From a virus: a stretch of DNA of 37,687 bases. Positions 3,874-37,687 of this stretch are shown here, piece after piece. The notes below the pieces were generated by a model. That model was not told the DNA's origin. It made no database searches and worked only from the letters and a program-made list of their open reading frames with translations. The number at the start of each line of letters is the position of its first letter. Within the stretch, counting starts at the first letter, position 1. The position numbers were made by a program, and so were the translations under genes. The stretch spans positions 1 to 37,687 of IMG/VR virus record IMGVR_UViG_3300009285_011564, one strand, 5' to 3'.

Positions 3874-4317
3874 TTATCTATATATAAAAGTTGCATTGAC
3901 ATCGCTCTTTGTTGAAGATTTCTTTATCGCGACGTCGGTAATTCTAATCTTATAATTATAGTTAAGACCAGTTACACCGAGTGGCTGATAAAAACCAAAA
4001 GCATTATTCGGTAAAACAAACGTTGCAATTGCAGTTCCACCTAAAGTGGCTGTGGTGGAAGAACCAGCATTGTTATAGACTGTGATAGTCTGAGCAACAG
4101 TCGAATCATAGGCTGTGTTTGAAGAAACTGAAAGCATAAGTAATCCAAGGTCGATATCTCCTGCTATGTTGGGATATGCACCGAGATAATAGTTGATTGA
4201 AGAACCAACCACATCATAGGTCGTTAATGCCACGGTGTACATCTCTCCTGCAGAAACAATTTTAGGTATAAAGCCGATTGTTAAAAATAAAACCAAAACA
4301 AGTAAAATCTTTTTCAT
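3874..4317 (-). CDS. Exported protein of unknown function beside the capsid gene
   Basis: The protein has 147 residues and starts with a textbook Sec signal peptide: MKK, a hydrophobic core (ILLVLVLFLTIGFI) and a cleavage-like VSA-G near residue 23. The mature part (~124 residues) is Thr/Ser/Ala-rich and probably all-beta. It has no cysteine, with paired 'TVALTTYDV...' and 'YNYKIRITDV' strands. An AAAAGGAGGATAA site precedes the ATG. It lies between the major capsid and connector genes, where decoration proteins often lie, but a signal peptide is unexpected for a virion protein assembled in the cytoplasm. I do not recognise the family. Confidence 0.8.
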   Translation of the reverse strand: MKKILLVLVLFLTIGFIPKIVSAGEMYTVALTTYDVVGSSINYYLGAYPNIAGDIDLGLLMLSVSSNTAYDSTVAQTITVYNNAGSSTTATLGGTAIATFVLPNNAFGFYQPLGVTGLNYNYKIRITDVAIKKSSTKSDVNATFIYR

Positions 4318-4468: not shown

Positions 4469-5617
4469 CTATTTATAAACAGACAATCCTCTAACAAATG
4501 CTGCTGGGATTGCTATGATATAACCTTTGCGAAGATCATATCTAAAAGCTTTTTGCCTCTGTAAGAATGTATTCTGCGTCGGTGTCGGGTTAGGAGAGAG
4601 CATAGAATTAGTTTCTTCGACTGTCATATTCGGATATAGAGAATGACTGAGTAACCAAGCATTGCTCATATCGCCATAGTAAATAGAAGTTTTTGATGTT
4701 GAAGTGCCAGAACCTGAAACTTGATCAGTTAATTTAAACGGTTTCCCGAGCAACATCGTCGGAACTCCATTAACTAACGAACCAAACAAAGGCTGACCAT
4801 TGTCATCTTTCAACTTCATTAATATACCAAGACATTTACGATTGAAATACCATTTTGCATTATTATGGTATGCTTCGATTTCCTGAGAATTCTGGAGATC
4901 AATGATGTTTTCATCAGTAATCGGTTTCGTGAATGTGGTTGAATTTACACCTGAAGCCTTTTTGATACCGTTTGCAAGATCACCTGAGCCTGTATAATCT
5001 CCTTCAAGAATCATTGCATCTATTGTTTGTCCTGCTTTCAAACCAACTCTCTTCTGGTAGAAAGAAGTCAAATCAATTTGCTGATCCTGAAGCTGCTCTT
5101 GTGTGTAAACAATGATTGCGGAGATTGAACCAAGTGTAGGTGTAATTTTAGTTGTGATAGGAGCTTGCGGAGTAATCCCACCGCTTTCTGCTACCCAAGC
5201 AACTGTTACATCCGTTGACTGAGCAGGTACGTCGGTTTTGTTTGTTGCCATTGGAACTGGAGTGCAATCACCAGCAACGACACTCGAATTTAGTGCTGTT
5301 TCGAGAATCTGCTTTGAAAATGCTGTCGGAACAACAGTCGCACCTTCAGTTGCTTCACTAATTGCAGTTTTTTGACCATATGCAATCATTTTCATAAATT
5401 GCATAAAACCAAGTTGTCCTGCTTCGTTTCCGAAATTAGGAGCAACTACCTTTTTACTCTCTTCCAAAGCTGCAAATTTTGTAGAGAACTCATTAATAAC
5501 TTTCTCGAGTTCCGATTTTTTGATCCCATCGTTAGGTATTGCACTCAATGATGCTTTAATATCTTCGACGGTCTTAAACAATTTACCTACTTCTTCCTGC
5601 GTTACTAAATCTGGCAT
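4469..5617 (-). CDS. Major capsid protein, HK97 fold
   Basis: The protein has 382 residues. It starts with a predicted coiled-coil delta/scaffold region (about 1-60, 'QEEVGKLFKTVEDIKASL...'), followed by the HK97 Phage_capsid domain. Recognisable parts are 'ATEGATVVPTAFSKQILET' at the domain start, 'SSVVAGDCTPVPM', the E-loop area with 'VAWVAESGGITPQAP', and 'YYGDMSNAWLLSHS' near the C-terminus. The upstream protease probably removes the N-terminal delta region (family knowledge; the exact site is not visible). GGGAGG precedes the start at 5617. Confidence 0.92.
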   Translation of the reverse strand: MPDLVTQEEVGKLFKTVEDIKASLSAIPNDGIKKSELEKVINEFSTKFAALEESKKVVAPNFGNEAGQLGFMQFMKMIAYGQKTAISEATEGATVVPTAFSKQILETALNSSVVAGDCTPVPMATNKTDVPAQSTDVTVAWVAESGGITPQAPITTKITPTLGSISAIIVYTQEQLQDQQIDLTSFYQKRVGLKAGQTIDAMILEGDYTGSGDLANGIKKASGVNSTTFTKPITDENIIDLQNSQEIEAYHNNAKWYFNRKCLGILMKLKDDNGQPLFGSLVNGVPTMLLGKPFKLTDQVSGSGTSTSKTSIYYGDMSNAWLLSHSLYPNMTVEETNSMLSPNPTPTQNTFLQRQKAFRYDLRKGYIIAIPAAFVRGLSVYK

Positions 5618-12912: not shown

Positions 12913-12914
12913 AA

Positions 12915-19654: not shown

Positions 19655-20127
19655 AAGAAAATTGGAAATTAGAAAACCCTTTCCGTAAAAAATTGGTTTT
19701 CTTTGAAGGACTTGATAAATCTGGTAAATCAACACTTTGTCGAAGAGTTCGTTTTGAAGGAAAGCATACCATACCCTTCTATGAAAGGGGATTCGCAGGA
19801 AGATATAATTTTTACCATTTTAACAAAGAAGAAGACAATTTTCCTGTGAAGGATTGGTCGTTTTTGGAAAATATTTTAATTGAAAAAAAGATGTATGCGA
19901 TAATTTGGTTGCGTACTTCCTATGCTAATGTCATTAAACGCCATATCGAAGCAGGAGAAGTTTGCGATTTTACTGTCGATCAATTAAGGGAACAGGACTT
20001 GAATTATGCCAAGCACATCCATCATCTTCAGGATTATTATTCCATTCCTGTCCTTGAATTGAGAACCGACAAACTTTCTTCCGACCAATGCGTAGAAGAG
20101 ATCTTAAAATGGACAGGAGTGTTATGA
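19639..20127 (+). CDS. Deoxynucleoside monophosphate kinase-like protein
   Basis: The protein has 162 residues from ATG 19639 (AAGGAGG upstream). The P-loop 'FFEGLDKSGKST' (~21-32) matches thymidylate-kinase-like enzymes (EGxDGxGKST). 'PFYERGFAGRYNFYH' and 'IIWLRTS' resemble the substrate and Walker B regions, and 'DLNYAKHIHHLQDYY' the C-terminal lid helix region. It is shorter than bacterial Tmk (~210). Substrate unknown: dTMP, or a modified dNMP made by the neighbours (inference). Its stop overlaps the next start (ATGA). Confidence 0.75.
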   Translation: MQDKIKENWKLENPFRKKLVFFEGLDKSGKSTLCRRVRFEGKHTIPFYERGFAGRYNFYHFNKEEDNFPVKDWSFLENILIEKKMYAIIWLRTSYANVIKRHIEAGEVCDFTVDQLREQDLNYAKHIHHLQDYYSIPVLELRTDKLSSDQCVEEILKWTGVL

Positions 20128-21125: not shown

Positions 21126-21136
21126 AGGAGGCTTGG

Positions 21137-22063
21137 ATGCAAGTAAATGTTGAATTAATAAGCTGGACAAAAGATCCTATTGAAACAATTTATCTTCTTT
21201 GGGAAGCTTCTAGAAAAAAAGAAGCTATCCCAACTATCGAAGAATTGAAATTGGTACTACATACAGATCCAGAACTCGCAGACAGAGTTTTTGAGACATT
21301 CCAAAAAGTTCTAACAAGTGCTATACCAGTTTCTGAAAATATAAATTTCATCTTTCTCCTAGAAAATGTTTCTATCTCTTTTCGGGAACAGATGGTACGC
21401 CACCGAGTAGGTGTGAAAGTCGGAGAAAGAATTGGTATGGACTATTTTCCCGATGTCCACGATTCAACTTGGTGGTCTCAGAGTATGCGGGTTTTAGATA
21501 TGGGAGATTTTGCAGAGAAGACTGCTTATAATATCCCAGACAGTATTCGTGTGAATGAAGAAGCATTGAATGTCTTACAGACTCAAATGCACTGTGCCGC
21601 TCAAGCTTATCGAGAATTGATCAAACTTGGTATTGCTGCAGAGGATGCTCGAGAAGTTATTCCGCTTGCCACCCAACACAGGATTTCTTGGAGTCTCAAT
21701 CTTGCTACCTTCGCACATATCCTTTCAAAGAGAAGTTGTTGGATTCTTCAACTCGGACTTTGGGAACCTGTTTTGATGGGAATGCTTGAAGAACTTTGTG
21801 AAAAAGTGAATCCTATTTTCAGCATTCTTGCGACTCCGCCTTGTATGAAAGGAGATTTTTTCAAACGTTGCTGTTTTGATTTTGATAATGAAAAACGTTG
21901 CAAGGGAGAAGATCCTTTACCGCCTTGTTCTCTTTATCTTTCCCATACGGATGTGCAGCCAGAAAATTTGAAAGAAATTGAAGACCGTAAAGATTTCCAA
22001 AAGATGTGTTTGAAATATAAAAAATTTTGGAGGAGAGATGTTTCTACAGGAAAATTGTTTTAA
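21137..22063 (+). CDS. thyX: ThyX-like flavin-dependent thymidylate synthase, atypical signature
   Basis: The protein has 308 residues from ATG 21137 (AAAGGAGG upstream). 'NVSISFREQMVRHR' (~77-90) is the ThyX flavin-binding motif. The following SxNExSxRY part is not directly adjacent: about 20 residues (VGVKVGERIGMDYF...) intervene before 'WWSQSMRV', whose Ser116 and Arg118 can align with SxR. The C-terminal half keeps 'VIPLATQHRISWSLNLATFAHILSKR...LQLGLWE', like the second ThyX motif, and ends with a Cys-rich region ('PPCMKGDFFKRCC...RCKGEDPLPPC'). Probable reaction: methylation of dUMP with folate and NADPH. A changed substrate is possible. Confidence 0.82.
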   Translation: MQVNVELISWTKDPIETIYLLWEASRKKEAIPTIEELKLVLHTDPELADRVFETFQKVLTSAIPVSENINFIFLLENVSISFREQMVRHRVGVKVGERIGMDYFPDVHDSTWWSQSMRVLDMGDFAEKTAYNIPDSIRVNEEALNVLQTQMHCAAQAYRELIKLGIAAEDAREVIPLATQHRISWSLNLATFAHILSKRSCWILQLGLWEPVLMGMLEELCEKVNPIFSILATPPCMKGDFFKRCCFDFDNEKRCKGEDPLPPCSLYLSHTDVQPENLKEIEDRKDFQKMCLKYKKFWRRDVSTGKLF

Positions 22064-25967: not shown

Positions 25968-26036
25968 TTCCCAGGTTCCTGATTTGATAGGCTTTAATCA
26001 ATCAAACCATCGAACTTTGCCATCCCACCCTGGGAA
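25968..26036. other. Structured element after the primase-helicase gene
   Basis: An outer 8-bp stem (TTCCCAGG at 25968-25975 with CCTGGGAA at 26029-26036) encloses inner pairings (TTTGAT 25983-25988 with ATCAAA 26001-26006, or TGATT with AATCA). It is transcribed at the 3' end of the early unit, just before the terminator. It does not fold as a normal tRNA. It could be a 3' stability element, a small RNA or an attachment-like site. Confidence 0.45.
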
Positions 26037-26037
26037 T

Positions 26038-26083
26038 AAAAAACCACTAAAATACTAATTTACGGCGTTCCAGTGGTTTTTTT
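26038..26083. terminator. Bidirectional terminator between convergent units
   Basis: An 11-bp stem AAAAAACCACT/AGTGGTTTTTT with a 23-nt loop has T runs on both strands. It ends the rightward early unit and the leftward-converging late unit. From 26084 to 26228 only two short hairpins (AAAAGAC/GTCTTTT and GTCTT/AAGAC) and no gene are seen. Confidence 0.8.
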
Positions 26084-26228
26084 AGTTAAAAAGACGCATT
26101 TAAATGGTCTTTTAAAAGCTTTTTAAAGAGTCTTTGTTAAGACAGTGTCCTCAATTTTTTCTGTGTAAAAATTTGTTTAAACTCAATAAGATATTAAAAA
26201 GATGTATTATTAGAAGTAAATTAAATAA

Positions 26229-26606
26229 TCATCCTGCAAAGTGTGGTGCATCAAAACTAAGCATAGGTTTTCCGTTGTATTTATCTTGCCATATTTTGTG
26301 CCATAAAATTGCTTTTTCTTGTTGCCATTCATAATCTACTTTTTGCTTTTCTTTATTCCAAAGATAAATATCCATAGCTTTGCCTGACTGATGTTCTGAA
26401 AGAAAAGTTATTCCGTCTTTAAATGTTACTACTTTATTTTTATCAGTTATAACCCATATATTGTCAATTAAAGTACGTCCTTGTGCATATAATCTTTGTT
26501 GTTCTTCAGTAGACCGTAAACAAAAATCAAATATAGGTTGTTCTCCCATACTAATCATATATGCAATTAAACTTGTTATATTTTTAGTAAATTCACGTCT
26601 TGTCAT
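26229..26606 (-). CDS. Endolysin, M15-type peptidase
   Basis: The protein has 125 residues from ATG 26606, which has GAAAGGAG 7 nt upstream; an upstream extension would overlap the zinc-ribbon gene and lacks a ribosome site. It matches M15-type L-alanyl-D-glutamate peptidases: 'DFCLRSTEEQQRLYAQGRT', the zinc motif 'SEHQSGKAMDI' (His72, Asp79) and 'DAPHFAG' (His122). Last gene of the late unit, it cuts the peptide stems of peptidoglycan. It lacks a signal peptide, so it needs the holin for release. Confidence 0.9.
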   Translation of the reverse strand: MTRREFTKNITSLIAYMISMGEQPIFDFCLRSTEEQQRLYAQGRTLIDNIWVITDKNKVVTFKDGITFLSEHQSGKAMDIYLWNKEKQKVDYEWQQEKAILWHKIWQDKYNGKPMLSFDAPHFAG

Positions 26607-26676
26607 AGTATCTCCTTTCAATACCCGTTTAGCTTTGAACAAAGTATGGGGCACTGTATCCACACTATTTTTAGTT

Positions 26677-26847
26677 TTATTTTTTATAGGTTGTTGAATT
26701 GCACCCCATAACTTGCTCAGTAACTTTGATACGGCTTTCAAAACAAGATTTACATACACAATATTCATATTGTTTTTGTTCATTGTGAAATTCTAACAAG
26801 TAGATGTTCTCGTTGTTTATATCCCACTTACAGAAAAGGCATCTCAT
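26677..26847 (-). CDS. Small zinc-ribbon protein in the lysis cassette
   Basis: The protein has 56 residues; its ATG overlaps the holin stop (ATGA). MRCLFCKWD and YCVCKSCFE give CxxC...CxC-xxC, a zinc ribbon of the type found in short phage proteins. It sits between holin and endolysin. Role unknown; it could regulate late expression or be a lysis accessory. The overlap and the cysteine spacing make it credible despite its size. Confidence 0.7.
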   Translation of the reverse strand: MRCLFCKWDINNENIYLLEFHNEQKQYEYCVCKSCFESRIKVTEQVMGCNSTTYKK

Positions 26848-27023
26848 TTCTTTGCTATCCCGCTTCTAATTGTGATTGCCAAAATTGCCTCTATGATTCC
26901 CCTGATTGCTTCCGTTGTTTCAATAGAGCCATTTGACCACGCTATCAATACTGCAAGAATACCAGATACTGCTATCAAATAAGTTTTCTTACCCTGTAGC
27001 GATTCCTTAAATTTATCAAACAT
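26844..27023 (-). CDS. Holin-like small membrane protein
   Basis: The protein has 59 residues from ATG 27023 (GGGGGTGA upstream; an earlier ATG at 27095 has no site). 'MFDKFKESLQGKKTYLIAVSGILAVLIAW' is a basic N-terminus followed by one transmembrane helix, and the C-terminal 'IRGIIEAILAITIRSGIAKK' forms a second hydrophobic segment. This two-segment pattern is seen in many phage holins and it lies directly upstream of the lysis genes. Confidence 0.7.
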   Translation of the reverse strand: MFDKFKESLQGKKTYLIAVSGILAVLIAWSNGSIETTEAIRGIIEAILAITIRSGIAKK

Positions 27024-27130
27024 AACAATCACCCCCTTGTTTGCTGAAATTTTCTTTATTATCAATTTTAGTATAAATTTTTCAATTATATTCATTTGAT
27101 TTTTAAATAGTTATAAACTATTTATAAAAA

Positions 27131-27835
27131 CTATTTATATTTTAAATAGTTGCTCTGGACTTGTGCTTCACTTAACGCACTGTTATATATCTTTACTTCG
27201 TCTATAAGTCCTTTGAATCTGCCGTTAGATGACCACTGCGAGCCAATCTTTACATACGATTCGTAATTATCTATATTCCCTTCGCAATCGCACTCATTTA
27301 ACAATGTGCCGTTCATATATAACTTCATTGTCGCTCCGTCGTATGTGCCAACTATATAACACCATTTATCTATATAGTTTTCTGTTAAAGGATAGAATAG
27401 TTCAAAGGCTTCGCTTTCTATCCATATTTTAAAATATATCTTGTCTGAACAACCTAATAGATAACTTGCTTTGTCAATTATACGCCTTGTTACATTTTTG
27501 TCTTGAGTTAAACTTTGAGGTTTTACCCACGCTTCTAAGGTTAAAGTATCTTGCATATCAAATAAGGTAGTAGATGCAATGTAGACCATTTTTACCCTAC
27601 CGTCAAACGAAAGAGCCTTTCCGACTTTACCGTCAACACGTTGTGGAACATTAGTTTCTGTAACTTGTGTTATAAACGGGAATACCGCATTAACAAGAAT
27701 ACCGTCATTTTTATACTTTGAAGTATCTTTGACAATTAGTCCGCCTTCCTCTTCAAATGACCACTCCCCGATAAGTTCACAATACGACGGATTATAAACA
27801 AATAACAACGCTAACAATATTAAAGATTTTTTCAT
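27131..27835 (-). CDS. Exported LamG/concanavalin-fold protein 2
   Basis: The protein has 234 residues from ATG 27835 (AGGAG upstream). A Sec signal peptide (MKKSLILLALLFVYNPSYC) is followed by one LamG-like jelly-roll domain: 'IGEWSFEEEGGLIVKDTSKYKNDG', 'VGKALSFDGRVKMVYI', 'DTLTLEAWVKP', 'KWCYIVGTYDGATMKLYMNGTLL', 'GLIDEVKIYNSALSEAQVQ'. Such domains bind glycans. It is a paralogue of the protein at 29767-30483. After cleavage it would be in the periplasm or on the surface; a receptor-binding or masking role is an inference. Confidence 0.82.
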   Translation of the reverse strand: MKKSLILLALLFVYNPSYCELIGEWSFEEEGGLIVKDTSKYKNDGILVNAVFPFITQVTETNVPQRVDGKVGKALSFDGRVKMVYIASTTLFDMQDTLTLEAWVKPQSLTQDKNVTRRIIDKASYLLGCSDKIYFKIWIESEAFELFYPLTENYIDKWCYIVGTYDGATMKLYMNGTLLNECDCEGNIDNYESYVKIGSQWSSNGRFKGLIDEVKIYNSALSEAQVQSNYLKYK

Positions 27836-27843
27836 AAACACTC

Positions 27844-28224
27844 CTATTTATAAAATATTACCATTCTACCACAACGCTTGCAAGTAACCCTATGTCGCAT
27901 TGCGATATAAACTAAGCTTTGGCATCCCATATTAGGATAAGAATCTATATCATCGCTATATACCTTTTCTCTTTCTTTTTCTTTGGGTTCATTTGGGATA
28001 AATTCTAATATACAATGTCCACCACACGAACTGCATATTATGTCATAATCAGTTTCTATAATATTATTAAATAATAAATCTATTTTTGAAGATTCGTCTT
28101 GAGCAATTTTATGCTTATTATATCGTATATCCGCAGTGAGATGTGGAGGCTCACAATAAAACGGTTTGACATTTACTAATAAACTTACTAATAAAATACT
28201 AATAATTACTAATAATTTTCTCAT
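27844..28224 (-). CDS. Exported protein with two CxxC motifs
   Basis: The protein has 126 residues. An N-terminal signal peptide (MRKLLVIISILLVSLLVNVKPFYC) precedes a mature part with 'ICSSCGGHC' and, 40 residues later, 'VTCKRCGR', a zinc-ribbon arrangement. A zinc ribbon on an exported protein is unusual; the cysteines might instead form disulfides. The start is preceded by GGGAG and overlaps a small membrane gene. Function unknown. Confidence 0.75.
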   Translation of the reverse strand: MRKLLVIISILLVSLLVNVKPFYCEPPHLTADIRYNKHKIAQDESSKIDLLFNNIIETDYDIICSSCGGHCILEFIPNEPKEKEREKVYSDDIDSYPNMGCQSLVYIAMRHRVTCKRCGRMVIFYK

Positions 28225-28328
28225 TTTAATATTCTCCCTATAACAAAATTTATATGTATTTCTATTGTTAAAAATATTATTATTCCTAATATAATACCTA
28301 ATAAAGTGTATAATATTTTATCAATCAT
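28221..28328 (-). CDS. Very small membrane protein
   Basis: This 35-residue protein is almost wholly one hydrophobic helix (ILYTLLGIILGIIIFLTIEI) with a basic end. Its TGA overlaps the ATG of the downstream exported-protein gene. It fills an otherwise empty gap. No strong ribosome site; the overlap is the main support. Confidence 0.45.
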   Translation of the reverse strand: MIDKILYTLLGIILGIIIFLTIEIHINFVIGRILK

Positions 28329-28359
28329 TTTTCTGATGTGAATCCAACAATCTCTGTCC

Positions 28360-28629
28360 TTAAATCTGCTTTTTACCTTCTGCCACTGTGTATGATATTA
28401 AAACTTCAGATGCTAATTGTCCTTTATCGTTTTTTCTTGTTACTATAATTTCTATAGTTTCATTTTCATTTAAAACTATATTAAACGACTTGTTTATTTT
28501 AGTAGTTATTGTTTCAATATCTGAATTATATGTAACTACTTTTTGTATGTCTTCAGTAAAAACTAAACTAACCACTACACCTAAAAAGCATATAATACCT
28601 ATCCCGATAAACATAAACATTTTTTTCAT
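28360..28629 (-). CDS. Small exported or membrane-anchored protein
   Basis: This 89-residue protein has an N-terminal hydrophobic segment (MKKMFMFIGIGIICFLGVVVSLVF) that is either a signal peptide or an anchor, then a beta-rich region of about 60 residues ('FNIVLNENETIEIIVTRKN', 'SEVLISYTVAEG'). The ATG overlaps the stop of the lipoprotein gene (ATGA). Family not recognised. Confidence 0.65.
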   Translation of the reverse strand: MKKMFMFIGIGIICFLGVVVSLVFTEDIQKVVTYNSDIETITTKINKSFNIVLNENETIEIIVTRKNDKGQLASEVLISYTVAEGKKQI

Positions 28630-28880
28630 AATACGCCCCCTAATTTAATTATCTGTAATTGGATTATTTTTTTTCTTATCCATTCTTCAAACATTATTCG
28701 CTTTGCTTCATATTGATTAACATTTCTACCGTTTATAAAATAATATCTCATTTCTGAAGTTTCACCAACATAATAATTATCATCACTATAATGATTATTA
28801 TTTAGTTGTATTGGTTTAGTTTTTCTTGTAGCACAAGAAGTAAGAAACAAGATACTAATAAACACTAATAGTTTTTTCAT
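28626..28880 (-). CDS. Small lipoprotein, o-spanin candidate
   Basis: The protein has 84 residues from ATG 28880 (GGGGGA 7 nt upstream; a TTG two codons earlier is less likely). MKKLLVFISILFLTSC ends in a clear lipobox LTSC, so the mature protein starts with a lipidated Cys. The rest is polar with a C-terminal helix (EAKRIMFEEWIRKKIIQLQ). With the membrane/coiled-coil protein at 28957-29223 it could form a spanin pair that disrupts the outer membrane (inference). Confidence 0.72.
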   Translation of the reverse strand: MKKLLVFISILFLTSCATRKTKPIQLNNNHYSDDNYYVGETSEMRYYFINGRNVNQYEAKRIMFEEWIRKKIIQLQIIKLGGVL

Positions 28881-28891
28881 AACCAATCCCC

Positions 28892-28960
28892 CTAATATTT
28901 TTTATTAAAATACCATACGAACAATAATGCAATTACAACACATAGCAATATATATATCAT
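28892..28960 (-). CDS. Tiny membrane peptide
   Basis: The peptide has 22 residues (MIYILLCVVIALLFVWYFNKKY), a single transmembrane helix with a basic C-terminus. Its ATG overlaps the stop of the preceding gene (ATGA), and it lies between the putative spanin components. It may be a real micro-protein or only a coupling device. Confidence 0.35.
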   Translation of the reverse strand: MIYILLCVVIALLFVWYFNKKY

Positions 28961-29223
28961 TTTTTAAGTGTTCTTACAATATCTTTTAACATCTCTTTTT
29001 GTTCCGACATCCCTTCTTTTATATACTGTAAATCTTTCTTAAATTCAATTATAGAAACTTCGTGCTGTTCTACCTTTGGTTTTATAGTCTTAACATCATT
29101 AACGGTTGCCATAACAATTGAATAAAATAAAGTCGCTGATACAACTATTGATATTACCCAGCCAATAAGTCGCTGTATCCATTCGTTAACCAAGAAATCT
29201 TTAACCATATCTTTTTTGTCCAT
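28957..29223 (-). CDS. Membrane protein with coiled coil, i-spanin or XhlA-like
   Basis: The protein has 88 residues from ATG 29223 (AAAGGA upstream). One transmembrane helix at about 18-40 (LIGWVISIVVSATLFYSIVMA) is followed by a heptad-rich helix (VEQHEVSIIEFKKDLQYIKEGMSEQ...). This topology fits i-spanins and also XhlA-type lysis proteins or small tail-associated membrane proteins. A lipoprotein gene lies just downstream. Confidence 0.65.
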   Translation of the reverse strand: MDKKDMVKDFLVNEWIQRLIGWVISIVVSATLFYSIVMATVNDVKTIKPKVEQHEVSIIEFKKDLQYIKEGMSEQKEMLKDIVRTLKK

Positions 29224-29368
29224 AAACATATCCTTTTACATCTTTATAAATTTCTTTGGCTAAATATACATATATCTCATAGCTGCAAGCTATAAGAGTG
29301 ATTATAAGTATCATTCCCGCTAAATTTAATATTCTTAATATATGTATATAGATTGATATATTTTCCAT
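29201..29368 (-). CDS. Small membrane protein
   Basis: The protein has 55 residues from ATG 29368. It has a central hydrophobic helix (LRILNLAGMILIITLIACSYEIYVYLA) and a charged C-terminal end (KEIYKDVKGYVYGQKR). It starts 4 nt after the preceding stop and overlaps the next gene by 23 nt, consistent with coupled translation. Function unknown; a holin-type role is possible. Confidence 0.55.
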   Translation of the reverse strand: MENISIYIHILRILNLAGMILIITLIACSYEIYVYLAKEIYKDVKGYVYGQKRYG

Positions 29369-29372
29369 ATTT

Positions 29373-29774
29373 TTATTTATACAACCCAAAATCTTTTGGT
29401 CGTTTGTTTATATGCTCTATCTCTAAGTCTTCAATATATCCGCCTATCCGCTCGTCGTATTTAGTTACTAATCTCTCTTTTTGTAATAATAGTATTTTAT
29501 TAGTAGTAATTAAATTGTCTAAATAATCTTTTTCCTCTTGTGTCTGTGGCGTTATCTTTAATACTGTATATGCAGGATTTTCCATTTCAATTAAATATGT
29601 CTGTCGTAATTGACAGTCTTTCGCTGTTTTTATATCCTGTATTCCTAAACTTTTTACACAAGTCGTTTCTATAGAATCTACCTTATCGTTATAAACTAAG
29701 TATATGTATGTATCTTGTGCTGATAATATATTATAACAAAATATAATAAATAATAAAATAAATATTTTAGTCAT
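29373..29774 (-). CDS. Exported protein, unknown
   Basis: The protein has 133 residues. The signal peptide MTKIFILLFIIFCYNILSA with an LSA-Q cleavage site precedes a mostly helical mature part with two Cys (ETTCVKSLG and AKDCQLRQ) that could form a disulfide. It ends 'RPKDFGLYK'. The start overlaps the end of the LamG gene by 8 nt. Family not recognised; the gene set around it suggests an envelope or tail-tip role. Confidence 0.72.
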   Translation of the reverse strand: MTKIFILLFIIFCYNILSAQDTYIYLVYNDKVDSIETTCVKSLGIQDIKTAKDCQLRQTYLIEMENPAYTVLKITPQTQEEKDYLDNLITTNKILLLQKERLVTKYDERIGGYIEDLEIEHINKRPKDFGLYK

Positions 29775-30483
29775 TGTTGTTTGTATACCTATCTATCATT
29801 TCCTCATACATTCTTTTTATCTCACCAGCCGATAGAGCACGATTTAAAACCATACACTCCTCTACTTTGCCGTAATATGACTGCCAAGCAAAACGGAGAT
29901 TCTGTGTGCTCGGGTCTATATTACCCGTCTGCCTTGATGCAGAACATAATTCACCATTTAAATATAACAAGAAATTGTTGCCACCTGCATCTTTGTTGTA
30001 TGTAAACATAGCGAATGTCCATTTATTGACTAATGCTTGACAAGTGCCGACATATTTCTGCGAACCACCTATCCGTATCATACCCAGAACATCAACAGTG
30101 TAAGTATTTTCAGACGGGTCTAAATATAGACGGTAATTCGCTTTATCCATTATAAACGGGTATGTAGAAGCAGGCACCGTCTGTGTTGGGTATATCCAAG
30201 CACCAACGGTTACATATGAAGTCAAAGTTAAGTTATATGAAGTATTTGTTTCCATATACGCTGTCCCGTCAGAGACAAATGCTTTCCCGAATTTACCTGT
30301 TGCCCAAGCACCGCCTGAAACAAAAGTAATATTGTTTTTACTTGCTGATGAATCTATTGAGGTTGTGCCTGTTCCTTCGTTCAAATGCCACAAACCGATA
30401 AGTCCAGGATAACCAGAATACATCTGCCCTGAATAACTATAATTAAAAATAAATAGGAATACTACTAAAATTAGTTTTCTCAT
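29767..30483 (-). CDS. Exported LamG/concanavalin-fold protein 1
   Basis: The protein has 238 residues. A signal peptide (MRKLILVVFLFIFNYSYS-G) precedes a LamG-like domain: 'GLIGLWHLNEGTGTTSIDSSASKN', 'GKFGKAFVSDGTAYME', 'YVTVGAWIYPT', 'KWTFAMFTYNKDAGGNN', 'LLYLNGELCSASR', 'GKVEECMVLNRALSAGEIKRMYEEM'. It is coupled by an ATGA overlap to the fibre-like gene upstream, so the two products are probably made together. A glycan-binding role is likely from the fold; the location of action is an inference. Confidence 0.82.
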   Translation of the reverse strand: MRKLILVVFLFIFNYSYSGQMYSGYPGLIGLWHLNEGTGTTSIDSSASKNNITFVSGGAWATGKFGKAFVSDGTAYMETNTSYNLTLTSYVTVGAWIYPTQTVPASTYPFIMDKANYRLYLDPSENTYTVDVLGMIRIGGSQKYVGTCQALVNKWTFAMFTYNKDAGGNNFLLYLNGELCSASRQTGNIDPSTQNLRFAWQSYYGKVEECMVLNRALSAGEIKRMYEEMIDRYTNNND

Positions 30484-33179
30484 TTTGGCTCTTGAATATA
30501 TCCGTATACTTTAACTCCATACTCCGACGGTAATGTGCCGCCTGTCGTGTTGTTCTGCACTCTGTTAACTTGTAAGGATATTGTATCGCCTGGTTTGAAT
30601 GTCTTGTAATTTAAATCTGTTAACCAAGTGCCAACTTGCACCGATGATGAGACATATAGAGCAGATGATGAGGTTGTTGTTGATGCACAGAAGCGTAAAG
30701 TATTACTGCCCTGGTCTGCCCAGTTAACATTTAAAAAGGTTGTGAATGTAGAAACATTAAGACAGAATCCTTTCATCTGTGTGGCATAGAATGTATTGCC
30801 TTCTATTAAAAATTCGTATATCCCGCTTCGTGTTCCCGACGATAAGAATGCATCACCACTACCGCCTCGTAGTTCTATGGTTTTTGAAGTTGTTATAACT
30901 GTTGCTGTTATTATTTTATTGTTCATTGAAATTGATGTTCCGACTGAATTGGTTATGCCTGCCGAAACATCTACATAACCATTAAATATACCGTTCCCGT
31001 CAACATCTAATGCTTGTGCGGGATTTATTTTACCGACAGATAAATTACCGTTCTCATCTAATTCCATTTGATTGGTTCCGTTAGTTTGAAATAATATACT
31101 ACCATTTTCTTTATTACCTATAAAAAATGTATCATCAATCCAAGAATTATTCCAATCTGTTAATCCAATTATAGTTCCGTCAGTATTACCATTGCCTGTA
31201 AGTGAATTTGCAAAGTGCATTCTTGCCCTTGCTTTTGTACTACCATATATTTCAAACCCACCAACACCCGAGTTATTATCTGTATAAACCAATAAAGGAA
31301 TATTGCCATTATAATAAGTTGTGCCTACTGTTACTGCACCGCTAACTATTTGCGATGATGTAAATACTTCCCCATTCGCTGTCATGGAACCGCCCATAAC
31401 AACATATTTAAAAGTTTTATTACCCGTTGTTATAGTTTGGTTAGTGGTTAAGTCAACAAAAGCAGTAGAATCAAGTCCGTCAAGTAAATTAGAATCTGAT
31501 GCTTTTCCATTAATTTGTAGATATGTTAATGTAGCAGAAGATTTATCAAGTTTGTTAGTTTCAAGTGTATTTGTATCTGTATATACCTCTGTTCTTGTTG
31601 AATAGTAATATGCGGATTGGTTGTTTAACTTACTGCTATCAGATGCGACACCGTTTTTTTGTAAGTAAGTAGCATTGGCGGAAGTTTTATCAAGTAGTGT
31701 TCCTGTTGATATTTCTAAGTTTGTTATATCAGTAATATTTGTATCAATTAAACCTTGTAGTGTGTTTGTATCAACACTAACCTCTGAATCTAAAGAGTCT
31801 AATTGTCTTTGTATGTTGCCAGACGATACACGACAATCATCATCTATAGAAGCAGGTGCAACCGTAGACGGGAATACACCGCCATTTATATATCCTGCTA
31901 TCGTTAAATTACCGTTTACATTAACGGAAGAATTAAAAACAAAATTATCGCCAATTGCCGTCATTGAAGAACCACCAATAAAAGGTTGTCCATTCATATC
32001 TATTGTAGTTGTTGCAACACCTTGAGCAAATGAAGATGATGCTCCACCTGATACTATACCCGTCAAGGAAGAACCGTCTCCATATAACTTTGCATTCGTA
32101 TCGCCCATCGTAGATGCTAAAACTGTATAACCGTTTGCGTCAATGTTGCCTGTGTGTTTTGTATCAGTAGTTATATGTATCTTATCAACGGTAGTATTTA
32201 TTGAAGATGTATATATACCCTTATTTATACTCATTGTTCCGTTTATTACTCCATAACCCGATGCTGTAAATGTTGATAAATAAGAATTATTTTGAACAGT
32301 TAAATTACCAAGTATGTTTGTATTTTCAGAAATAACTGCACCAGAACCTAAAACAATAGATATATACCCTGCATAACTACTTATTATTGTTCCAGTTGCA
32401 GATAATTGAATATAACCATAAGAATCATTATTGTCTTTTGTTTTTATTATCAATCCTCTCGTATCACTATCAATCCCAAAGTTTTTAATTACTGAACTAT
32501 AATTATTATCAGGTGTATAAGTGTCATATCTTGTTAAATATAAGTTACCGTCTACTTCTATTCTTGAAGGGTAATTTATTCTATCTAACGAATCAACCCT
32601 TATATATGCCCCTGATATATCATTTAATAATAAATTGCAAGAACTAAAAGAACTTTCGCCATATCTACTTTTCATTATCAATTTATTTGACGATGATTGA
32701 TATAGCATATATTTATTATCAGTCCCTGCTATGCCTGTAGATGCTTTTATATCACCAAAAACATAAGCATTTGAAGATATATATATTCCACCATTTTGTA
32801 ATTGTGTTCCAGACGTAATATAAATAAGATTTTCTATTTTGAATATTTTCGCTCTTGAAATTCCATTAACATAAGTGTGAGTAGAAAAATAAAAACCACC
32901 TTCTTGTGATTGAGTAGTAGAAGTTATATAAACATTATTTTTTATTTCATATTGATTCGCTTCAATAGTTCCAGTATCCCTTAATCTGATATACACAGGA
33001 CAAGATGCAGTTAATACTGTATAAGAACTTCTAACAATTATTAAATCACCCCTCTGATACCAATCGTTGCGAACTGTCATAGTGTCTTTGACAACCAAAT
33101 TTTGTTGAACATCGTAATAACCTGCATATGTTATCGTAGGTAATAATAATAATAATAATAATAAAAGTATCTTTTTCAT
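30480..33179 (-). CDS. Large exported fibre-like protein
   Basis: The protein has 899 residues. It starts with a signal peptide whose core is nine Leu, ending TYA-G at ~19. The body is Ser/Thr/Asn/Gly-rich beta sequence typical of trimeric tail fibres, with 'KLYGDGSSLTGI' and two copies of a repeat around residues 500-580 ('ATYLQKNGVASDSSKLNNQSA', 'LTYLQINGKASDSNLLDGLDS'), a fibre-type 'LLDGLDSTAF' motif. The C-terminus has small beta modules ('YKTFKPGDTISLQV'). Position after the collar gene fits a tail fibre, but a Sec signal on a virion protein is not expected. Alternatively it is a surface protein of the infected cell. Confidence 0.8.
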   Translation of the reverse strand: MKKILLLLLLLLLPTITYAGYYDVQQNLVVKDTMTVRNDWYQRGDLIIVRSSYTVLTASCPVYIRLRDTGTIEANQYEIKNNVYITSTTQSQEGGFYFSTHTYVNGISRAKIFKIENLIYITSGTQLQNGGIYISSNAYVFGDIKASTGIAGTDNKYMLYQSSSNKLIMKSRYGESSFSSCNLLLNDISGAYIRVDSLDRINYPSRIEVDGNLYLTRYDTYTPDNNYSSVIKNFGIDSDTRGLIIKTKDNNDSYGYIQLSATGTIISSYAGYISIVLGSGAVISENTNILGNLTVQNNSYLSTFTASGYGVINGTMSINKGIYTSSINTTVDKIHITTDTKHTGNIDANGYTVLASTMGDTNAKLYGDGSSLTGIVSGGASSSFAQGVATTTIDMNGQPFIGGSSMTAIGDNFVFNSSVNVNGNLTIAGYINGGVFPSTVAPASIDDDCRVSSGNIQRQLDSLDSEVSVDTNTLQGLIDTNITDITNLEISTGTLLDKTSANATYLQKNGVASDSSKLNNQSAYYYSTRTEVYTDTNTLETNKLDKSSATLTYLQINGKASDSNLLDGLDSTAFVDLTTNQTITTGNKTFKYVVMGGSMTANGEVFTSSQIVSGAVTVGTTYYNGNIPLLVYTDNNSGVGGFEIYGSTKARARMHFANSLTGNGNTDGTIIGLTDWNNSWIDDTFFIGNKENGSILFQTNGTNQMELDENGNLSVGKINPAQALDVDGNGIFNGYVDVSAGITNSVGTSISMNNKIITATVITTSKTIELRGGSGDAFLSSGTRSGIYEFLIEGNTFYATQMKGFCLNVSTFTTFLNVNWADQGSNTLRFCASTTTSSSALYVSSSVQVGTWLTDLNYKTFKPGDTISLQVNRVQNNTTGGTLPSEYGVKVYGYIQEPK
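33141..33164. repeat. TAA/TTA trinucleotide microsatellite
   Basis: Eight perfect TAA units on the plus strand read as eight TTA (Leu) codons in the signal peptide of the fibre-like protein. Slippage by whole units would keep the frame but change the length of the hydrophobic core. Confidence 0.85.
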
Positions 33180-33191
33180 TTTTATCCTCTT

Positions 33192-33785
33192 TTAAATTTT
33201 TATGATATAATTTAATGCTAAATAAGGCGGATTATAATCAGTTCCTGCACCTGTTCCACCGTCTGTTGTTCCACTATGTGTATGTGTTGCTGATTCTGTG
33301 CTTGAATTTAATCCAGACGGTGTCCCGCCTGATTCTCCAACACGATGTACTGCTAATTCTGGATCTTGTTTTGCATAATATACGGTTGCATAGATTGGGT
33401 CGTGATTATGCGTTGCAGATTCAGTGCCTGTCGTAATATTATGTGTATGTGAAGGTAAATTGGCAGAATTTATTGTATTAGAACCACCTGTTGAACCTAA
33501 TGCTTTTGTGCCTGATTTCCCAATTGCAAACTTATCTCTTAAATCTGGTAAATTAAATGTAGCACCAGCACCACCGAATGTATAACCAATACTTGCGAAT
33601 AAACTTGCATAGGTTGTGGTATCTATTCCTGAACCGTCACAAATAAGCCAACCAGTCGGAGCAGAAGTACCGCTATATAAATTTATAACACCCGACGGTG
33701 TGTTTTCTAAAACATCTAATCTTAAATTATTATATTGTGATGCAAGAATATCATCTCCACCTGCTACATCAGAACTATTTGACAT
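33192..33785 (-). CDS. Tail collar-domain protein
   Basis: The protein has 197 residues. After an N-terminal ~35-residue segment, 'INLYSGTSAPTGWLICDGSGID' begins a Phage_Tail_Collar domain continuing 'YASLFASIGYTFGGAGATFNLPDLRDKFAIGKSG'. It then has a His-Thr rich tip ('LPSHTHNITTGTESATHNHD', 'ESATHTHSGTT') of the metal-binding type seen in short and long fibres, and ends with 'YNPPYLALNYIIKI'. It is not preceded by a signal peptide, unlike the next gene. Probable role: distal tail or fibre tip. Confidence 0.88.
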   Translation of the reverse strand: MSNSSDVAGGDDILASQYNNLRLDVLENTPSGVINLYSGTSAPTGWLICDGSGIDTTTYASLFASIGYTFGGAGATFNLPDLRDKFAIGKSGTKALGSTGGSNTINSANLPSHTHNITTGTESATHNHDPIYATVYYAKQDPELAVHRVGESGGTPSGLNSSTESATHTHSGTTDGGTGAGTDYNPPYLALNYIIKI

Positions 33786-33930
33786 TTTCTTTCTCCTTAT
33801 TTAATAAATATTCAAGTATATCCCTTGACCCTATTTTTAAATTTTCTAAATACCATTTTTCAAAATTATCTTTTTTAAATGTTTTTAAATTTTTTATTAA
33901 TATTATTGCTTGCTCGGAATATTTAATCAT
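33775..33930 (-). CDS. Small basic protein in the tail module
   Basis: The protein has 51 residues (MIKYSEQAIILIKNLKTFKK...). Its ATG overlaps the previous stop (ATGA) and its own end overlaps the collar gene start by 11 nt, where AAGGAGAAAG serves the next gene. Helical and charged; function unknown, possibly a fibre-assembly factor. Confidence 0.6.
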   Translation of the reverse strand: MIKYSEQAIILIKNLKTFKKDNFEKWYLENLKIGSRDILEYLLNKEKENVK

Positions 33931-34430
33931 AATATAGTTATTTCTGTTTCTATAGTTAAAGTTATAGCAGTGGTTTTAACTTTATCAATAATCACTCTCT
34001 CAAATAATGTTCCACTATCTGTTGTAGTTGTTGCATCTTCGCCGAACAATCCATATTCCTTTAATGTACCGTTTGCATCTGTTGTTGCGAAAAATGTTCT
34101 TATTGTTGCAACATTATCAGTATTATATCTTTGTGCTACTAATTTTCTTTTTATTTCTGTAACTAATTTTATATCATTTTCAGTCGGTGTTGTATCGCCC
34201 GTACCAACAGCCCCGTAAGTTATTATTCCTTCATTACTTTTAGATGCAATATTGCACAATCTTCTTGCAAGAGCAGTATGCCCTGTTAGGGGAATTATAT
34301 TTTTATACCAGTGTGATATTTTCGCATCTCCATTCTTTATCGCAGTATCAACATCTTCAAAATTAGGATATTTCTTACCATCGCATTCTATCAATCTCAC
34401 CATTCCAATAATTAAACTCTTATCTTTCAT
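33927..34430 (-). CDS. Tail-tip or fibre-attachment protein
   Basis: The protein has 167 residues from ATG 34430 (three codons after the previous stop). The sequence has a pattern common in phage tail proteins: 'ITYGAVGTGDTTPTENDIKLVTEIKRKLV', 'NVATIRTFFATTDANGTLKEYGLFG', 'GTLFERVIIDKVKTTAITLTIETEITI'. Such proteins lie between the tail hub and the fibres. Exact role not known; I place it in the distal tail by position and strand pattern. Confidence 0.65.
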   Translation of the reverse strand: MKDKSLIIGMVRLIECDGKKYPNFEDVDTAIKNGDAKISHWYKNIIPLTGHTALARRLCNIASKSNEGIITYGAVGTGDTTPTENDIKLVTEIKRKLVAQRYNTDNVATIRTFFATTDANGTLKEYGLFGEDATTTTDSGTLFERVIIDKVKTTAITLTIETEITIL

Positions 34431-34432
34431 AT

Positions 34433-34639
34433 TTATGACCACATTGCTTCATTCCAAACACAACCATCGTCCCACTTATATAAACTACCAATATGTTCAG
34501 AAAATGTCGCAGCACCGTCTGATAAATTTATTTCTTCCTCTAATACATCAAAATCATTAAGTATCTCATCATCTCGTAATTGTATTTTTTCTGTTTTATC
34601 AATAAGTTTGGTAAATAATCCGACTAATTTTCTTATCAT
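34433..34639 (-). CDS. Small protein between tail hub and tip genes
   Basis: The protein has 68 residues (MIRKLVGLFTKLIDKTEKIQ...), with an N-terminal amphipathic helix and an acidic C-terminal half ending 'YKWDDGCVWNEAMWS'. Its ATG overlaps the hub gene stop (ATGA). Family not recognised; position suggests a distal tail component or chaperone. Confidence 0.6.
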   Translation of the reverse strand: MIRKLVGLFTKLIDKTEKIQLRDDEILNDFDVLEEEINLSDGAATFSEHIGSLYKWDDGCVWNEAMWS

Positions 34640-36033
34640 ACCTCATCCGTTGAAAATTCTACTTTATATTCATAATTACCTAATCCTAAACTCTGCGTCG
34701 TAACCTGTTGTATTATAACCTGTGTATCAATTTCTCTTGTTGGAATATTTATTGTCAATAATTGCCCTGCTTTGTACCCTGATTGTGTAGTTATAAATGA
34801 CCCTGATAAATGCGGGAAAGCAAATTTTGATAATTCAGAATTAGCCCTCTGCACTGCCTCATCTACTGTTGCTATTGTATCATCAATAATTAAATATTCG
34901 TGTATGCCTGTTCCACCTTCAATTGCTTTCAGTTCATTTATACTATTTTTGTCATATTTACGAACAAGGATAGGGATTTTATATTTATATGTTATTGTAA
35001 CAATATCACCATAATTAAGTTTCGGTAAATCAAGATTTTTTATTATTTTCTCGGTAAAATTTAATACAAAATCATAACCTGATGTTGTTATATTATCTAT
35101 ACTTACTGTTTTTGCTACACTATTAACACTCACTGTTATAGGAGCATATGGTGCATATGCTAACAAAAACTCTTCCTGCTGTCCGTCGGCAACTATGTTT
35201 TGAGTATAAACATCTGATAAATAATATCCGCCTTGCACAGTTATATAATTTCTTAATTGCGAAATATCTATTTCTAATAATAAATTTCTATATTGTCCAC
35301 TTGACGAAGTTTCGTTTAATTCATATGGTGCAGCATTTGAACTTCTTGAAAAAAAATGTATTATATTATCATAATCAACATACCATTCGTAATTAGTTTC
35401 AATTGCTAATTTTTCTATACATTGAAATATTGTTTTATAATTAAATCTTATTGATTCTATTGTTAAACCGTTTTCTACTTCTGCAGTAGAAAAACTCGGC
35501 ATATATTTATTTATTATGTATTCAATTATATATTTACAATTTTTATTTTCAAAATTCTCTACAACCAATCTATTATTTAATTTCCAAGAATAATCAAGAC
35601 AATTTATGCTATAATTATATTTATCAAGAGATAATTTTACTTGAGGTGCAGATACCAAAACCCCGCCAAATATTTTAGTCGGTAAACCTTCTGAAATATC
35701 ACCTGAATATATTGTTACATCACAACCTTCAAGTGGTTTATTCTCGCCAGTAGTATCCTGTAATATCATTTCAGCAGTATCAACCTGTGATGTTATTATA
35801 TTTTCTATTTTTATACTTTGCTTTTTTATAAATTGCGAAACTTCTTTATTGTTTATATATATTGCAGGATTCGGGATAGCATAACCTACTCCGCCTTGAC
35901 TTCCACTTATTATAGGATACCAATCATTATTCATACGAATCCATAATTGCCCAGTATTTGTATTTATCCACATCTTTCCACTGTCTGAACTTGTAGGTTC
36001 TATATCAGTAACTGAAAATAATAATTCTGCCAT
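34636..36033 (-). CDS. Tail hub (baseplate/Tal-like) protein
   Basis: The protein has 465 residues from ATG 36033 ('MAELLFSVTDIEP'; an in-frame upstream start would overlap the small gene before it). The first ~40 residues hold a Gly/Trp motif ('SGKMWINTNTGQLWIRMNNDWYPI'). The rest resembles tail hub proteins of the gp27/Dit-Tal type: 'AEMILQDTTGENKP', 'INCLDYSWKLNNRLV', 'RNYITVQGGYYLSDVY', 'AVQRANSELSKF', 'YKAGQLLTINIPTREI', 'YEYKVEFST'. It follows the tape measure gene, where the tail-tip hub is encoded. Confidence 0.7.
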   Translation of the reverse strand: MAELLFSVTDIEPTSSDSGKMWINTNTGQLWIRMNNDWYPIISGSQGGVGYAIPNPAIYINNKEVSQFIKKQSIKIENIITSQVDTAEMILQDTTGENKPLEGCDVTIYSGDISEGLPTKIFGGVLVSAPQVKLSLDKYNYSINCLDYSWKLNNRLVVENFENKNCKYIIEYIINKYMPSFSTAEVENGLTIESIRFNYKTIFQCIEKLAIETNYEWYVDYDNIIHFFSRSSNAAPYELNETSSSGQYRNLLLEIDISQLRNYITVQGGYYLSDVYTQNIVADGQQEEFLLAYAPYAPITVSVNSVAKTVSIDNITTSGYDFVLNFTEKIIKNLDLPKLNYGDIVTITYKYKIPILVRKYDKNSINELKAIEGGTGIHEYLIIDDTIATVDEAVQRANSELSKFAFPHLSGSFITTQSGYKAGQLLTINIPTREIDTQVIIQQVTTQSLGLGNYEYKVEFSTDEV

Positions 36034-36038
36034 AAATT

Positions 36039-36182
36039 TTATCCAAATGGTGACCAAGTATTGCCTATATAAATATATGCCTGTATATCATTATTTGAGG
36101 AATCAATTTTTATCCAAATTTGCCCTGATTGAGGTGATGCAGGTTCATTCTCTTGACGAATTACAATATAAATATATTCCAT
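36039..36182 (-). CDS. Small Trp-motif protein between tape measure and hub
   Basis: The protein has 47 residues (MEYIYIVIRQENEPASPQSG...). It repeats the SGQIWIKIDS...YIGNTWSPFG motif that also begins the hub protein. It starts 2 nt after the tape measure stop and ends 5 nt before the hub start, so it fills the gap exactly. It may be a duplicated domain of the hub N-terminus or a small tail-tip component. Confidence 0.65.
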   Translation of the reverse strand: MEYIYIVIRQENEPASPQSGQIWIKIDSSNNDIQAYIYIGNTWSPFG

Positions 36183-36184
36183 TT

Positions 36185-37687
36185 TTAAATATGTCTCTCA
36201 TTTTTTACACTTTTTAATATTTTATCTGAAATTGTATTCGTTAAATTATCTAAATCTATATTATCACTTATAGTATTACCTGTTACCGAAACATTTATAA
36301 TTGTAGAACTTTGATTATTACCTCTAATCATTTGATTAGTTTCACCCGCAGTCATTACACTACTACCACGAGGCAATAAAACGGTTTCGGGACCCTGTTC
36401 ACCAACCCGTACCAATCCACCCGAAAAATTATTTACACCCGTTGCAAAACTCAGTAATTTAGTAAAACCACCACCGAATGCAAGTGTTAATGCTTTAAAT
36501 ACAAGCCATTTCACTATCATTCTTGTTACTTCGGCGATAAACATATCCGCCATATTTTGAAATAAAGACTTGAATATTGCATTTGCCGATTTTGTTCCTT
36601 TGATAAATTCTTGAAACATTGTTGAAAATGCATTTGTCATTGAATCATATAATGCAGTTACTAATTCTATTTTAGTTTTGTTTTGTGCTTTTTGGAATTC
36701 AATTTCTTGTTTCCCTTGTTCCGCTAATACCGATAATCTGTAAAGTTCAGCTTCTTGTCGTTGTCTTTCGGTTTCAATTAATGCTTGTTTATCAGCAATC
36801 TGCATCGCAGTTAATTTCTTCTGCTGTATGTTCTGCTCAGTCTTTGCTGTTTGTTGTGCATCTGCTATTTTTTTATTTTTTAACTCTTCTGATTTTTGTT
36901 TTACTGCTTCTATACCAACCGTATATGAACTTACTACATTATCAACTGCAGTTTTAACATTATTTTTCCATTCTTCAAAATGTTCTTTTGCCTTAAACGG
37001 ATTGGCTAATATTTTACCCAAAGTTGCGAATGTAGAGGCTAAAGAATACAATAAAGCAACTGCTGAATCCATTAAAACCCTAAAAAATCCAGTTATTGCA
37101 GCTACTACAATAGCCGTCCGTTCCCTAATATTACCCCAATTTGTAGCCCAAGCAACTGCAAAAGTGCCTATCGCTACGGTTAATAATGTTATGACTATGG
37201 TTAATGGATTGATAGCACCTATTACTAAAGTTATACCAGCTGCAAGTTGAGGCAAGAACCCAATAAGTAATGCAAGTGTTCCGAGTAAACCTGATACTGC
37301 AGTCCCAATCAATAAAAACTTTGCGATTAAATTTATCTGTTGTGGTGTAAGTTTTTCAAATAAATTTATTATTTTTTCTATATAGCCAGTAAAATATTTC
37401 AATGTTGGAATCAATGCAAAACCAATACCCTCTTTCAAATCATCCATTCTATTTTTCAGTATTATAATTTGTCCAGAAAAGGTTTGTGCTTGTGCCTGTG
37501 CTGAACCGCCAAATAGTTTAGTTATATTCTCTACGGCAGTTTGCATACGCTGTGTTGAACCAACCGCACCAGTAACTTCTATACCATACCTTGAAAGAGC
37601 ATTTGTAGAAGAGCCTACTGATTTTGATACTAAATCAGCAGCACCTTTTAAATCCATACCTTTCGCAGATGCTAAATCAAGTGTTGC
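36185..37687 (-). CDS. Tape measure protein, C-terminal part (joins 1-479 across the circle)
   Basis: This frame is open to the right edge of the window and continues at 479 to 1. It includes hydrophobic helices ('INLIAKFLLIGTAVSGLLGTLALLIGFL', 'LTIVITLLTVAIGTFAVAWATNW'), a long coiled coil ('AQQTAKTEQNIQQKKLTAMQIADKQAL...') and the C-terminal 'VRVGEQGPETVLLPRGSSVM' motif typical of lambda/HK97-type tape measures. The protein sets tail length and probably helps DNA entry. Full gene: 634 residues. Confidence 0.9.
   Translation of the reverse strand, partial: ATLDLASAKGMDLKGAADLVSKSVGSSTNALSRYGIEVTGAVGSTQRMQTAVENITKLFGGSAQAQAQTFSGQIIILKNRMDDLKEGIGFALIPTLKYFTGYIEKIINLFEKLTPQQINLIAKFLLIGTAVSGLLGTLALLIGFLPQLAAGITLVIGAINPLTIVITLLTVAIGTFAVAWATNWGNIRERTAIVVAAITGFFRVLMDSAVALLYSLASTFATLGKILANPFKAKEHFEEWKNNVKTAVDNVVSSYTVGIEAVKQKSEELKNKKIADAQQTAKTEQNIQQKKLTAMQIADKQALIETERQRQEAELYRLSVLAEQGKQEIEFQKAQNKTKIELVTALYDSMTNAFSTMFQEFIKGTKSANAIFKSLFQNMADMFIAEVTRMIVKWLVFKALTLAFGGGFTKLLSFATGVNNFSGGLVRVGEQGPETVLLPRGSSVMTAGETNQMIRGNNQSSTIINVSVTGNTISDNIDLDNLTNTISDKILKSVKNERHI
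37611..37687. repeat. Terminal overlap, right copy
   Basis: Identical to bases 1-77; it marks the circular closure of a 37,610-bp genome. A 77-base overlap is a common k-mer length of short-read assemblers, so the repeat is most simply an assembly product. Confidence 0.95.

Follow-up and report, generated by a model that had tools for sequence, protein, structure and literature searches.

What signal peptides are doing on proteins that look like outer parts of a virus particle is the question raised by a cassette of late genes (positions 27131-33179) in the 37,687-base virus record IMGVR_UViG_3300009285_011564, the whole of which was analysed and is called the window below. Tailed phages are thought to complete their particles in the cytoplasm, and because the particles are built inside the cell, signals for the host Sec pathway on outer proteins are odd. 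A preliminary description of this DNA had proposed a run of exported proteins between the tail-tip genes and the lysis cassette, which could either build a structure on the infected cell or supply virion parts that attach after lysis. The genes that it named are present where it placed them. Here we describe the Sec-type signal peptides of this cassette and of a further protein encoded beside the capsid gene, and we tentatively propose that the proteins that bear them are outer virion accessories, exported by Sec and joined to the particles at lysis.

Signal peptides (SPs) were identified by a three-region rule, distinct from SignalP, that looks near the N-terminus for a positive n-region, a hydrophobic core and small residues at -3/-1. 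On two annotated stretches of Escherichia coli K-12 the rule accepted 10 of the 21 genes treated as exported and none of the 56 others (0/56), hence it is conservative. Within the cassette it is positive for the 899-, 238-, 133- and 234/236-residue proteins, the lipoprotein at 28626 and an 89-residue protein; by the same rule the 899-, 238-, 133- and 236-residue products, as well as a 147-residue product of the head module, have the form of Sec preproteins. The SP starts are not a matter of chance, since none of the 89 overlapping non-gene open reading frames (ORFs) of the window passes and SP-positive ORFs are enriched in the window and two capsid-level relatives (12/66) compared to other loci (19/1723; Fisher p = 2e-10, in a test that treats neighbouring genes as independent, which ORFs within one genome are not fully, and that uses comparison loci chosen for the most part through similarity of polymerase, portal, terminase and capsid, not at random, with the secretory genes of L048, L054 and L067 counted in the background). 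L067, another viral contig, has three consecutive small SP genes with serine/glycine-rich products (18744-20396). In lambda, HK97, T7 and PHS3, with ATG starts, none of the fibres passes, and the only positives are Lom, RexB, Rz-type spanins, Bor and a single small hypothetical protein. SP prediction on the late proteins, a check put forward in the preliminary description, gave the cassette positives listed above, and the other listed late proteins of the window have no SP-like start (12-residue mean <= 1.8), with the exception of a 90-residue membrane protein.

The largest product of the cassette is the 899-residue fibre-like protein, whose SP (MKKILLLLLLLLLPTITYA/G) is predicted to be cleaved after residue 19. 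Residues 552-766 match the tail fiber proximal subunit of PHROG 972 (E=1.3e-5), and this profile match over part of the protein, along with its place after the collar gene, makes it a candidate tail fibre; it belongs to no Pfam family, and among phages it has no close relative. The SP of the 238-residue LamG protein is MRKLILVVFLFIFNYSYS/G and that of the 133-residue protein MTKIFILLFIIFCYNILSA/Q. The 238-residue gene overlaps the fibre stop codon by 4 bases, and the 133-residue gene likewise overlaps the stop codon that precedes it. The second LamG protein (234/236 residues, ATG start at 27835; SP MKKSLILLALLFVYNPSYC/E) is a paralogue of the first (27% identity, E=4e-16). We considered the SPs as artefacts of wrongly chosen starts and dropped this explanation for the 899- and 147-residue genes, in which ribosome-binding sites (AGAGGA in the former) precede the SP start codons; these sites and the stop codon overlaps of the 238- and 133-residue genes imply that the SP starts are likely the true ones.

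The remaining members of the run are less clear-cut. The 126-residue protein has a very hydrophobic start and a poor cleavage site (FYC/E), therefore it fails the cleavage-site part of the rule and is left unscored; an SP is probable for it. Behind its N-terminus it has six cysteines, including CxxC pairs, with sub-threshold matches to Pfam zinc fingers, which would be unusual outside the cytoplasm. The 89-residue protein at 28360, considered a further possible exported protein in the preliminary description, passes the SP score, although its start, a long hydrophobic stretch that has no AXA site, is probably a membrane anchor rather than a cleaved signal. The SPs of the proposed run are convincing for the 899-residue fibre, the two LamG proteins and the 133-residue protein, and probable only for the 126-residue protein, while the product at 28626 has a lipobox. 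The run does not form an unbroken row, because the 90-residue coiled-coil membrane protein interrupts it, nor does it lie between the tail-tip genes and the lysis cassette: the exported genes are mixed into the lysis genes, not placed before them.

A member of the set that the preliminary description did not include lies in the head module. The ribosome-binding site of the 147-residue gene is placed for the SP start codon, and homologues in L005 and L009 (65% and 76% identity, respectively) are capsid-adjacent likewise, with SPs in which the letters are partly different and the form is kept. The protein is as conserved as the capsid protein itself (65-76% versus 66%), unlike a casual passenger gene. 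A gene that adjoins the capsid gene and is conserved with it is what a head decoration protein would be expected to have, and the 147-residue protein is a candidate for one. It belongs to no Pfam or PHROG family. A search of solved structures with an alignment of this protein gave a borderline lectin match (1fx5, E=0.019), which we do not rely on.

Secretory proteins recur in the head and tail modules of relatives. L009 has two further SP proteins (121 and 319 residues) between the portal and the protease. A more distant relative, L021 (continued in L105), shares with the window a polymerase (38%), a primase (44%) and a ThyX-like protein (51%), and no capsid or portal match to the window was found in the L021/L105 record. 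In L021, whose head module is a different one, a 451-residue SP protein is encoded directly after an apparent capsid gene (weak matches only), and a 283-residue SP protein stands beside the tail-tip genes. Neither the 899-residue protein of the window and the 283-residue protein of L021, nor the 319-residue protein of L009 and the 451-residue protein of L021 have detectable homology to each other. By sequence comparison the secretory proteins of L021 are unrelated to those of the window, and they occupy the same head and tail slots.

Domains of these proteins are also found in virion-type proteins that have no SP. Right after its SP, the 283-residue protein of L021 is 51% identical over 35 residues to the start of Tunturi_4 gp112 (a tail assembly protein by annotation), and its C-terminal domain is also present in BcepC6B gp19, PBR31 orf35 and the Mulvp2 tail fibre. 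Proteins annotated as tail fibres in phages of Klebsiella, Pectobacterium, Dickeya and Enterobacter share the C-terminal domain of gp19, and all four of those checked (4/4) lack an SP. A stretch of 107 residues is common to the 451-residue protein and the minor tail protein gp17 of Eden (E=1e-4). In ct2G2228 a small protein encoded two genes after the capsid gene (UOF81786) resembles the 319-residue protein in the C-terminus of the latter (E=2e-4), and the SP scan of that stretch of ct2G2228 detected no SP. UOF81786, Tunturi_4 gp112, Eden gp17 and CB5 gp52 thus share domains or slots with the SP proteins of L009 and L021 and, unlike these, have no SP. On the other hand, gp19 (annotated as tail fiber protein) and orf35 (annotated as putative structural protein) combine an SP-like start with a fibre-type C-terminal domain, that of orf35 scoring under the strict threshold. 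Both are encoded between a tail fibre or spike and holin-endolysin-spanin genes, which is comparable to the arrangement in the window. One such protein is seen in each of the two phages, compared to five or six in the window, and the homology of gp19 and orf35 is to the 283-residue protein of L021, with none detectable to the 899-residue fibre. A word search of the PBR31 genome paper gave no mention of the orf35 signal (PMC10975493). Judging by these domain matches, Sec signals recur in this lineage on proteins of virion type whose genes occupy virion slots, and outside the lineage such cases exist at least occasionally.

We propose, tentatively, that the 899-residue fibre, the two LamG lectin-like proteins, the post-capsid 147-residue protein and probably also those of 133 and 126 residues would be synthesised as Sec preproteins, exported late in infection and matured in the periplasm, while core proteins without SPs would build DNA-filled particles in the cytoplasm. 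Once the holin, the endolysin and the spanins had opened the cell, the particles would meet the exported accessories, which would bind to the outside of the head and the tail. We favour this attachment at lysis because the post-capsid SP protein is conserved in three phages at 65-76%, similarly to the capsid (66%); because L021 also has a post-capsid (451 residues) and a tail-tip (283 residues) SP protein; and because the domains of SP proteins recur in virion-type proteins without SPs and the fibre of the window has its match in a tail-fibre PHROG. In some model phages decoration proteins and fibres can bind finished particles in vitro. The preliminary description had left a cell-surface structure and post-lysis virion parts side by side; both are kept here, and some weight shifts to virion parts, since an exported protein is conserved behind the capsid gene and several exported proteins of relatives carry domains of SP-less virion or head-slot proteins.

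Several points weigh against attachment at lysis. As particles are assembled in the cytoplasm, attachment would require a post-lysis step, and we met none as described. The tail of this uncultured phage already has a collar protein without an SP. Structure prediction of the mature 147-residue protein was too poor (predicted local distance difference test, pLDDT, 43) for a fold or a structure search. No relative that spans the cassette itself, for which the preliminary description had suggested a search in related phages and host genomes, was found in the phage collection, the viral contigs or the related records: the 899-residue fibre and the 238-residue LamG protein have no relative in the phage collection, the fibre has none in the viral contigs or in five related records either, and a scan with the hub protein found only one near-identical contig, which ends before the cassette. 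A wider proposal, in which much of the outside of the virion, head decoration and fibres alike, would pass through the host Sec pathway in this lineage and be added at lysis in a second, extracytoplasmic assembly step, seems unlikely to us.

An alternative, rather unlikely though the best placed of the rivals, is that the exported fibre-like and LamG proteins never enter virions and serve as receptor masks, either periplasmic or at the outer surface. By occupying the phage's own receptors or surface glycans they would exclude superinfecting phages and prevent the loss of progeny to debris after lysis, a purpose for which the lipoprotein Llp of T5 blocks the receptor FhuA (PMC9586334). Ligand binding is typical of LamG domains, and BcepC6B gp19 and PBR31 orf35, with an SP and a C-terminal fibre domain and located between fibre and holin, look like a secreted receptor-binding part. 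However, masking leaves unexplained the conserved SP proteins of the head module, whether beside the capsid gene or flanked by the portal and the protease, and the 283-residue protein of L021 keeps, behind its SP, the N-terminal motif of a fibre-type protein without SP. Nor is there a significant match to a known exclusion family: the 86-residue lipoprotein matches the PHROG of Cor (PHROG 1119) with E=0.12 and over its N-terminal part only.

That the hydrophobic starts are inner-membrane tethers or assembly aids, with the proteins being built into virions from the cytoplasmic side, is improbable. It would account for virion-type proteins in virion-gene slots without a post-lysis assembly step, sequence cannot prove cleavage, and the 89-residue protein does look like an anchor; several of the starts, however, consist of a short hydrophobic core and an AXA-like cleavage site, the classical form of an SP and not of an anchor, and this form is common to unrelated proteins of the lineage.

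The lysis genes with which the exported genes are interleaved are of ordinary type (Table 1). The 28957 and 28626 products look like a spanin pair and are candidates on weak PHROG matches; the lipoprotein at 28626 (MKKLLVFISILFLTSC) is positive by the SP rule and its match to the Rz-like spanins of PHROG 1275 covers the N-terminal part only. This pair, the holin candidate and the VanY endolysin would make up a normal lysis set; the two spanin-like genes, which the preliminary description had not set apart, are separated here from the unusual exported genes. An extended lysis or dispersal set, in which lectin-like and fibre-like proteins, once exported, would help progeny to escape by loosening the envelope or the extracellular matrix, would fit this interleaving and is likewise improbable, given that the Pfam search found no enzyme domain in any exported protein and the head-module proteins are left unexplained. 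L021 encodes a LamG protein at the far end of its lysis region (7142-8101, minus strand), which in contrast to the two of the window has no SP.

Table 1 Features of the window discussed in the text
Feature	Coordinates	Strand	Evidence or remark
Major capsid protein	4469..5617	-	PHROG 10 E=1.9e-40; 66% identity to L005 and L009
147-residue protein, Sec SP	3874..4317	-	directly after major capsid gene; highest SP score of the genome
Collar protein, virion tail protein without SP	33192..33785	-	PF07484 69 bits; just upstream of fibre gene
899-residue fibre-like protein, Sec SP	30480..33179	-	SP score 57.9; PHROG 972; directly after collar gene
238-residue LamG protein, Sec SP	29767..30483	-	PF13385 56.6 bits (cut-off 27.6)
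133-residue protein, Sec SP	29373..29774	-	SP rule; no Pfam family
90-residue protein, one membrane segment and coiled-coil-like tail; inner-membrane spanin candidate	28957..29229	-	PHROG 739 Rz-like spanin E=3.7e-4
84/86-residue lipoprotein, lipobox LTSC; outer-membrane spanin candidate	28626..28886	-	PHROG 1275 E=0.009
89-residue protein, N-terminal membrane segment	28360..28629	-	passes SP score
126-residue protein, probable SP	27844..28224	-	12-residue hydrophobic mean 3.31
236-residue LamG protein, Sec SP	27131..27841	-	PF13385 81.6 bits (cut-off 27.6)
83-residue membrane protein, holin candidate	26844..27095	-	weak PHROG 526 holin match, E=0.21
Endolysin, VanY-type peptidase, without SP	26229..26783	-	PF02557 25.7 bits (cut-off 25); PHROG 465 E=6e-8

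A 99.9% identical contig (L011) crosses both ends of the window with a 77-base overlap, which shows the genome (~37.6 kb) to be circularly closed and complete or nearly so. The ends of the window themselves (1-77 and 37611-37687) repeat by ~77 bases, the record being circularly closed although classed as linear. The minus strand encodes the terminase, portal, protease, capsid protein, connectors, tape measure, hub and collar, and the plus strand a replication set of polymerase, primase-helicase, Sak4-like annealing protein, ThyX-like protein (a label that is our own reading of sequence motifs) and radical SAM protein. Among the window proteins searched there was no integrase, the window has no tRNA, and a scan for promoters and terminators in 26000-37687 stayed at chance level. 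To judge by the lipoprotein and the spanin-like membrane protein, the host may be one that has an outer membrane; a scan of genome contigs for relatives of the window, aimed at the host, found none. Consecutive plus-strand genes at 18627-22063 encode a nucleoside deoxyribosyltransferase, a YfbR-like HD protein, a radical SAM/SPASM protein and the ThyX-like protein, a row that suggests nucleotide or DNA-base modification; the ThyX-like gene is conserved in L021 (51%), where it adjoins the polymerase gene. Also on the plus strand, the early one, a membrane protein gene (12412-12912) with a sub-threshold 3D-domain match overlaps a gene for a 78-residue lipoprotein-like product (12909-13145; ILFCQGC), possibly a second envelope-acting pair, distant from the main lysis genes.

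Exported proteins as such are not new to phages: secreted endolysins, spanins and the exported Lom and Bor are known already. Secreted endolysins (Lys44 of fOg44 and signal-arrest-release, SAR, endolysins) and spanins are late proteins that use the host Sec pathway (PMC6116005). These are lysis proteins, while the endolysin of the window has no SP and its unusual proteins are not lysis enzymes. Lom, encoded in the tail-fibre region of lambda, and Bor are outer-membrane proteins of a temperate phage that, unlike the window proteins, have no fibre or LamG domains and are not capsid-adjacent. The exclusion lipoproteins Llp of T5 and Cor are small exported or lipid-anchored proteins that act on the envelope (PMC9586334); the window set has no significant match to them, is larger, and comprises LamG proteins, fibre-like proteins and one member in the head module. 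Our literature search found no paper on SP-bearing virion accessory proteins in tailed phages, which is weak evidence of absence as most subscription journals lie outside its coverage.

If it is true that several outer proteins of this phage carry Sec signals, either a late, extracytoplasmic step of particle assembly or the release of fibre-like receptor blockers would follow, and the annotation of SP-bearing "tail fibre" genes would change. BcepC6B and PBR31, two cultured phages whose genes are arranged comparably, are in the databases, and both readings are directly testable.

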